Source: Candidatus Falkowbacteria bacterium (GTDB lineage: Bacteria > Patescibacteriota > Patescibacteriia > Patescibacteriales > Patescibacteriaceae). Taken from it: a stretch of 64,000 bases of DNA. The position numbers and the translations under genes are program-made. Location of the stretch: assembly GCA_026396835.1 (NCBI GenBank), contig JAPLWA010000003.1, positions 1 through 64,000 on the forward strand. The letters are read 5' to 3'. The notes beneath the pieces were generated by a model that saw nothing but the letters and a program-made list of their open reading frames with translations, made no database searches and was not told where the DNA came from. Position 1 is the first letter of the stretch, and each line of letters opens with the position of its first letter. Shown here piece by piece: positions 33,423 through 55,800 of this stretch.

Positions 33423-33452
33423 TCCGCCGAAGGCGGACCAGCCTTTGGCTGG
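33423..33452. repeat. 30-bp double-hairpin element between rpsB and tsf
   Basis: Two abutting 15-bp palindromes, TCCGCCGAAGGCGGA and CCAGCCTTTGGCTGG, each with a 6-bp stem and a 3-nt loop (GAA, TTT). The same layout occurs twice inside the tRNA-Glu relic (55519-55548, 55562-55591). Confidence 0.7.
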
Positions 33453-55408: not shown

Positions 55409-55480
55409 TAGTCCCAAGGGGAATCGAACCCCTATTACCAGGATGAAAACCTGGCGTCCTAACCGTTAGACGATGGGACC
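55409..55480 (-). tRNA. tRNA-Glu (anticodon UUC)
   Basis: A 72-nt cloverleaf on the minus strand. Acceptor GGTCCCA pairs with TGGGACT (G1-U72 wobble), the anticodon arm is CCAGG-TTTTCAT-CCTGG giving UUC, and the T arm is AGGGG-TTCGATT-CCCCT. CCA is not encoded. A broken copy of its 5' half lies just upstream at 55514-55648. Confidence 0.95.
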
Positions 55481-55518
55481 AAATATATTAAATTTTTAAC
55501 AACCATTATTTAAGGATG

Positions 55519-55548
55519 CCCGCCAGAGGCGGGTCCGCCTTTGGCGGA
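55519..55548. repeat. 30-bp double-hairpin element (insert 1)
   Basis: CCCGCCAGAGGCGGG abuts TCCGCCTTTGGCGGA: two palindromes of 6-bp stem and 3-nt loop. It sits exactly between the G of GGATG and AAAACC of the tRNA-Glu copy. Confidence 0.75.
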
Positions 55549-55561
55549 AAAACCTGGCGTC

Positions 55562-55591
55562 TCGCCCGAAGGGCGACCAACCTTTGGTTGG
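55562..55591. repeat. 30-bp double-hairpin element (insert 2)
   Basis: TCGCCCGAAGGGCGA abuts CCAACCTTTGGTTGG; same plan and loops (GAA, TTT) as the element between rpsB and tsf. Confidence 0.75.
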
Positions 55592-55603
55592 CTAATCTTA
55601 GAC

Positions 55604-55637
55604 TTGCCCTTCCGTAGCTCGCAAAGCGAAGGAGGGC
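55604..55637. repeat. 34-bp palindromic insert (insert 3)
   Basis: GCCCTTCC...CGC-AAA-GCG..GGAGGGC forms one long imperfect hairpin. Its left part resembles the hairpin at 33474-33490. Confidence 0.6.
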
Positions 55638-55800
55638 GATGGGACCATGAGTCAATAATCTCTATAATTAAAGAAAATTAAGATCAAAATCTAGTATAAT
55701 AATGAAAAGCAATATTGTCAAGCACTGATTTACCTTGACACTAGCCCATATTTACCGTAGATTGAAAGATTGATTTTACAGATCTAGGGTTTAATTTTAC

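Follow-up and report, generated by a model that had tools for sequence, protein, structure and literature searches.

An interrupted tRNA-Glu copy in a Candidatus Falkowbacteria genome as the probable relic of a GIY-YIG nuclease unit occupying tRNA genes

How does a tRNA gene come to stand behind a broken copy of its own 5' half, cut at three points by palindromes? This question is raised by the window analysed here, a stretch of 64,000 nucleotides (contig JAPLWA010000003.1, assembly GCA_026396835.1) from Candidatus Falkowbacteria bacterium, which carries on its minus strand an intact tRNA-Glu(TTC) at 55480-55408, the sole TTC tRNA-Glu detected by ARAGORN in this 1.05-Mb genome (completeness 96%). 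Spliced alignment of this tRNA to the 240 nt upstream of it recovered bases 1-41 interrupted by three inserts (55646-55513, minus strand), with a score of 39 that none of 500 shuffles attained (best shuffle, 30). The copy is made of four minus-strand blocks (55646-55637, 55602-55592, 55561-55549, and 55518-55513) that are exact except for a middle one, where TCTAAGATTAG replaces the TCTAACGGTTAG of the tRNA and is one base shorter, and its break points fall after base 9 (or 10), base 22, and base 35. A preliminary description of the locus had reported such a 5' copy, with inserts of 30, 30, and 34 bp whose deletion restores the tRNA almost exactly; all of this is borne out, save that the copy extends to base 41 and not 38. 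The tRNA and its copy are both read leftwards and are separated by a 32-nt spacer (55512-55481, minus strand), at the place where the complete units of relatives carry a GIY-YIG nuclease gene. The window contains neither a nuclease gene nor any recognisable trace of one.

The inserts are of two kinds. The one nearest the 5' end of the copy, after base 9 or 10 as in the tRNA-Arg copies of Flagellimonas, is a single imperfect hairpin of 34 bp (55603-55636, minus strand), and a weaker one, its fold test having been run on a stretch shifted by four bases. The other two belong to one family of 30-bp double hairpins, each consisting of two 15-nt hairpins back to back, and lie in opposite orientations: after base 22 (55562-55591, plus strand) and after base 35, within the anticodon (55519-55548, minus strand), the latter being followed by CATCCT, which corresponds to bases 36-41. 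These two 30-bp inserts are thus pairs of adjacent GC-rich hairpins devoid of flanking duplication, so that the absence of target-site duplication proposed earlier holds for them, the ends of the 34-bp insert being ambiguous in this respect. A further member of the family occurs in the window at 33423-33452 (plus strand), flanked by A/T-rich sequence in a 3-kb locus that is devoid of tRNA, and dispersed double hairpins with the same stems are found away from tRNAs, in agreement with the earlier proposal that the palindromes are insertable units. Across 24 members of the family, 99.3% of cells are paired, and 41 cells have changed on both sides of the stem in a compensatory manner, versus 11.3 in shuffles.

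Alignment with a sister genome, which the preliminary description had put forward as a check, points to which of the two tRNA sequences is the native one. A promoter-like site (TTGACA, 17 nt, TATACT; 55721-55693, minus strand), recognised by its match to the consensus and supported by its conservation, precedes the broken copy in the window. In G003, a genome of the same genus, the neighbouring gene is shared and both hexamers and their spacing are identical, and the site leads directly into an intact tRNA-Glu. G003 has no broken copy and thus provides the empty allele at this locus. Since the same promoter precedes the intact tRNA in one genome and the broken copy in the other, we infer that the broken copy occupies the start of the native gene and that the intact downstream gene is the restored one.

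Several genomes of the order carry tRNA-Glu pieces broken at bases 35/36, mostly with a double hairpin at that point. Using a strict signature of break and hairpin, matches were obtained in 8 of 111 genomes of the order and 12 of 380 genomes of the class, giving 16 distinct genomes, and none with the reversed control; because this signature pre-selects a hairpin after base 35, it cannot alone establish that this position is favoured, which the nuclease-seeded survey presented below can do. Reading of the loci by eye located an open GIY-YIG frame between the copy and the intact tRNA in 11 of the 16 genomes, and Pfam PF01541 was matched for two of these frames. The frame is broken or truncated in G106 and G313, G298 retains what appears to be its tail, and neither the window's own genome nor G031 has such a frame between copy and tRNA. 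Second units lacking a nuclease, similar to that of the window, also occur in G105 and G305, G036 has a single unit of this sort, and G007 retains a fragment of tRNA-Glu (bases 1-40) without hairpin. In its complete form, the unit comprises on one strand the native promoter, the broken 5' part of the tRNA, a GIY-YIG gene of about 85 aa, and a complete tRNA, and it is because this nuclease gene, present in relatives, is absent from the window's own copy that we call the latter a relic. Furthermore, in five genomes (G026, G017, G036, G039, and G122), the intact and the broken tRNA belong to different acceptor-stem alleles.

Among 11 of the nuclease proteins, Y5, Y16-I17-G18, R26, H30, and E62 are invariant, which we take to be the motifs characteristic of a GIY-YIG active site. 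Comparison with NCBIfam placed the nuclease in no named family, as the matches were weak and limited to part of these 11 members, and the closest solved relatives by sequence are the UPF0213 proteins of PDB entries 1zg2 (E 8e-13) and 1ywl (E 5e-11), both named hypothetical proteins. Two other origins were considered and set aside: one protein of the family had no match when tried against phage records, and a self-splicing (group I or II) intron was rejected as Rfam, at the gathering threshold, gave only tRNA matches at these loci.

A profile built from these 11 proteins, from nucleases of the tRNA-Glu type, was used to find the gene elsewhere, and the best 80 of 170 loci were retained by name. 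The hosts of these best 80 loci are Patescibacteria, Bacteroidota, Fidelibacterota, Omnitrophota, and others, with the reservation that metagenome-bin contigs can be wrongly assigned; the isolates represented in the survey have the tRNA-Arg form. A same-strand tRNA lies within 400 bp of the nuclease at 78 of the best 80 of 170 loci, a proximity to be compared with the roughly 1.4% of the window's genome that is this near a same-strand tRNA; the remaining 2 of the 80 lack a tRNA even within 700 bp. The neighbouring tRNA is tRNA-Glu in 39 cases, tRNA-Arg in 18, tRNA-Ser in 10, and one of seven other types in the rest of the 78 tRNA-adjacent loci among these best 80 of 170. With a scan cut-off of 40 or 44, which overlooks the window's own copy (score 39), a degenerate copy of the adjacent tRNA was detected at 59 of these 80 best-matching loci and a copy with inserts at 52, and no clear copy was seen beside 19 of the 78 tRNA-adjacent nucleases. 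Shuffled flanks yielded tRNA copies for 0 of 89 tRNAs. The nuclease lies between the copy and the intact tRNA at 52 of the best 80 of 170 loci, and its distance to the tRNA (median, 16 bp over the same best 80) suggests that both may belong to one transcript. At the loci read, an intact tRNA is always kept beside the broken upstream copy.

The positions of the inserts recur as well. Chains of more than three inserts (e.g., L140, L172, and L195) were excluded before counting, and of the 78 inserts counted in the best 80 of 170 loci, the site after base 35 accounts for 31 and the sites after bases 21 and 22 for 27; 69 of the 78, from these same best loci, fold better than their shuffles by more than 2 sd. 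Copies of tRNA-Glu mostly have double hairpins of 30-32 bp after base 35, whereas those of tRNA-Arg mostly have single palindromes of 20 bp, different in sequence, after base 21 or 22, a contrast indicating that bases 21-22 have been struck by unrelated palindromes across tRNAs and phyla. The break after base 9 is common to the window and Flagellimonas, and the inserts are located within the tRNA loops or adjoin them. Such a recurrence across genomes, phyla, and tRNA types argues against three chance insertions in the window's copy. Otherwise, the copies are variable, from about 28 bases to the whole tRNA, with none, one, two, or three inserts, and the ends of the tRNA fragments range from base 28 to base 75, which argues against a single crossover point.

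The nuclease is under purifying selection, as judged from dN/dS values of 0.013-0.176 in 8 of the 30 pairs listed, synonymous sites being saturated in the remaining pairs. Moreover, its lineages track tRNA type more than host phylum: on the nuclease tree, tRNA type changes 14 times, as compared with a shuffled mean of 35.8 and a lowest shuffled value of 31, and phylum changes 34 times, as compared with a shuffled mean of 41.1 and a least possible number of 22. This tree is weakly resolved, being built from 85 columns, with 39 of its 77 inner branches open.

Empty and occupied alleles coexist at a single locus within one genus, Flagellimonas, in addition to the pair formed by G003 and the window. 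Matches were found in 59 of 60 genomes, and 30 loci sharing the same upstream gene were fetched and classified: 21 are empty at the tRNA-Arg, 5 are relics without nuclease (two of them, L226 and L248, overlooked by the scan and added by eye), 3 bear the nuclease, and 1 is cut by a contig end. The unit has thus been gained and lost at the same site in this genus. In its three nuclease-bearing loci, the gene is found on either side of the tRNA-Arg. In another member of the survey, Algibacter, a TGA lies within the nuclease frame. We also observed that, in the spacers of L221, L222, L226, L246, and L248, a short inverted repeat immediately precedes the intact tRNA-Arg, and that the sequence of this repeat varies from species to species.

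The window's genome itself holds seven GIY-YIG genes, five of them more than 1 kb from a tRNA and one 325 bp from a tRNA-Pro. Another (C4:540215) is found 125 bp downstream of a tRNA-Lys, in a locus (C4:540150-540950) where palindrome-interrupted copies flank this tRNA on both sides; it is a nuclease-bearing unit of the same kind as that of the window, in the same genome. Among the five tRNA-distant genes, three (C1:33161-33382, C1:64438-64662, and C6:85861-86085) are bracketed by inverted ATCCC...GGGAT palindromic repeats, with scores of 53-66 where the highest of 150 random places reaches 29, and together with their repeats they look like single mobile units. Hairpin-interrupted 5' copies also stand 25-42 bp upstream of tRNA-Ile (C1:50979-51053), tRNA-Thr (C4:214025-214098), and tRNA-Asp (C6:59630-59704), with no nuclease gene between copy and tRNA, as at the window's tRNA-Glu, and an uninterrupted copy adjoins tRNA-Arg(gcg). 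Lastly, one 5' and one 3' tRNA-Glu half (C4:306691-306753 and C4:317848-317894, respectively) lie about 11 kb apart, and their order could correspond to the two ends of an inserted element.

From these data, we consider it probable that the feature in the window is what remains, without the nuclease, of a GIY-YIG element of the homing type, one that settles in tRNA genes while a functional copy of the tRNA is kept. The earlier view of the copy as the trace of an element entering tRNA genes would then stand in outline, with a different type of element, a GIY-YIG nuclease unit. The nuclease would cut uninvaded tRNA genes of its own type, and repair from a chromosome carrying the unit would copy the unit in between the tRNA sequences. 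The original 5' segment of the gene would persist as a dead leader, and the working tRNA would be kept downstream by selection, probably in the same transcript. Such a dead copy would tolerate insertions and could gather palindromes at set positions within the tRNA loops or beside them, and in the window the nuclease gene would since have been lost. A homing enzyme would, however, be expected to cut the intact tRNA at the locus where it resides as well, and this tRNA is nonetheless kept. As to the positions of the hairpins, bases 9, 22, and 35 could be cut sites healed by palindrome insertion, or they could reflect the target preference of the palindromes themselves, an idea that stems from the run of T often preceding the dispersed double hairpins; it is also conceivable that the inserts are retained since they would block pairing of the dead 5' half with the 3' half of the live tRNA. 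Going further, the different acceptor-stem alleles and the three repeat-bracketed GIY-YIG genes suggest, tentatively and with rather less than even probability, a widespread class of natural bacterial cleave-and-rescue elements, in which the nuclease would break an essential tRNA gene at set points of its loops, the unit would supply a replacement tRNA, and such nucleases would also spread palindromes into the cut points.

Other explanations must be weighed against the occupation of tRNA genes by a homing-type element. A passive origin, by which an error of replication or repair would have produced a partial tandem duplication, the dead copy being struck later by free palindromes and no nuclease ever being involved at this place, would accord with the lack of a nuclease gene in the window, with the nuclease-less interrupted copies at tRNA-Ile, tRNA-Thr, and tRNA-Asp and the uninterrupted one at tRNA-Arg(gcg), and with the existence of palindromes away from tRNAs. 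We hold it to be unlikely, as most other signature genomes combine the same break and insert positions with a nuclease gene, relic and nuclease-bearing forms share one Flagellimonas locus, and no tandem duplication of sequence upstream of the window's copy was seen.

The maintenance of pairing in the double hairpins by compensatory change could alternatively mean that the interrupted copy works as an RNA, a tRNA-like leader with lengthened arms that would regulate the nuclease or the tRNA behind it, with the hairpins as its working parts; inserts in or next to loops and the 49.1 bits still scored as a tRNA by the doubly interrupted tRNA-Arg copy of L199 point in the same direction. But the great variability of the copies in length and number of inserts speaks against this, and the dispersed double hairpins share the same stems, so that pairing may serve the palindrome itself; we regard a functional RNA as very unlikely. 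Finally, tRNA genes are common integration sites, and the locus might be the scar of an integrative element with a tyrosine recombinase and an att core inside the tRNA, later deleted, a reading near that of the preliminary description, for which the tRNA-Glu pieces 11 kb apart on C4 could be att sites. This appears highly improbable given that the loci read hold no island between copy and intact tRNA, where just one GIY-YIG gene or a short spacer is found, and that insertion at the same bases across tRNA types would be left unexplained.

In the PMC literature searched, the closest match to the homing-type unit, judged from the available part of the article, is SegB of phage T6, which is reported to cut within tRNA genes and to amplify a tRNA segment by recombination, and whose relatives are near tRNAs in phages (PMC13096335). 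These free-standing GIY-YIG homing endonucleases of T-even phages resemble the present nuclease by a gene adjoining tRNA genes of many types (PMC13096335); in contrast, the unit described here is found in chromosomes of Patescibacteria, Bacteroidota, and others, its protein has about 85 aa and lies between a hairpin-interrupted copy and an intact tRNA, and its cutting activity is presumed. In the rRNA genes of CPR bacteria, GIY-YIG-encoding insertions that match no intron share with our unit the bacterial group, the type of gene, and a location at the top or base of structural-RNA stem-loops; however, they are in rRNA, the accessible text reports neither a duplicated, restored target nor palindromic inserts, and it places these GIY-YIG genes outside homing (PMC11270868). 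In mitochondrial DNA, double hairpins and further repetitive hairpin elements, for which the same source cites those of Allomyces, are likewise GC-rich, dispersed as insertions, arranged in tandem pairs, and free of flanking duplications (PMC2800124). Compared by description, the present ones differ in being bacterial, in having a defined stem consensus, and in standing at fixed points of tRNA copies beside a nuclease. The available part of PMC1564403 draws no link between this nuclease group and tRNA genes. No published description of the unit was found in the open PMC literature, a scope outside which preprints and most subscription papers fall. The predicted unit combines traits of SegB, of the CPR rRNA insertions, and of mitochondrial hairpins in a form not found in the literature searched, and we class it as a putative free-standing homing-endonuclease element of which the window would hold a relic.

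This assignment links short palindromic repeats of bacteria, the spread of which largely lacks an explanation, with a nuclease family that has a defined place in the genome, namely the loops of tRNA genes, and it accounts for a class of tRNA pseudo-copies missed by annotation. It also suggests that, in very small genomes, tRNA genes that are essential and often present in one copy undergo repeated invasion and restoration. Cutting and movement are testable in isolates, since Flagellimonas beolgyonensis KCTC 23501 and Halpernia humi DSM 21580 have open nuclease frames.

A last arrangement was noted among the relatives of the window. At positions 1775-1997 of locus L087, in G017, a complete tRNA-Glu is nested within a split tRNA-Glu, with no nuclease gene, and the inverted repeat CCGCACCACAAAAATAA stands at both ends of the inserted piece.
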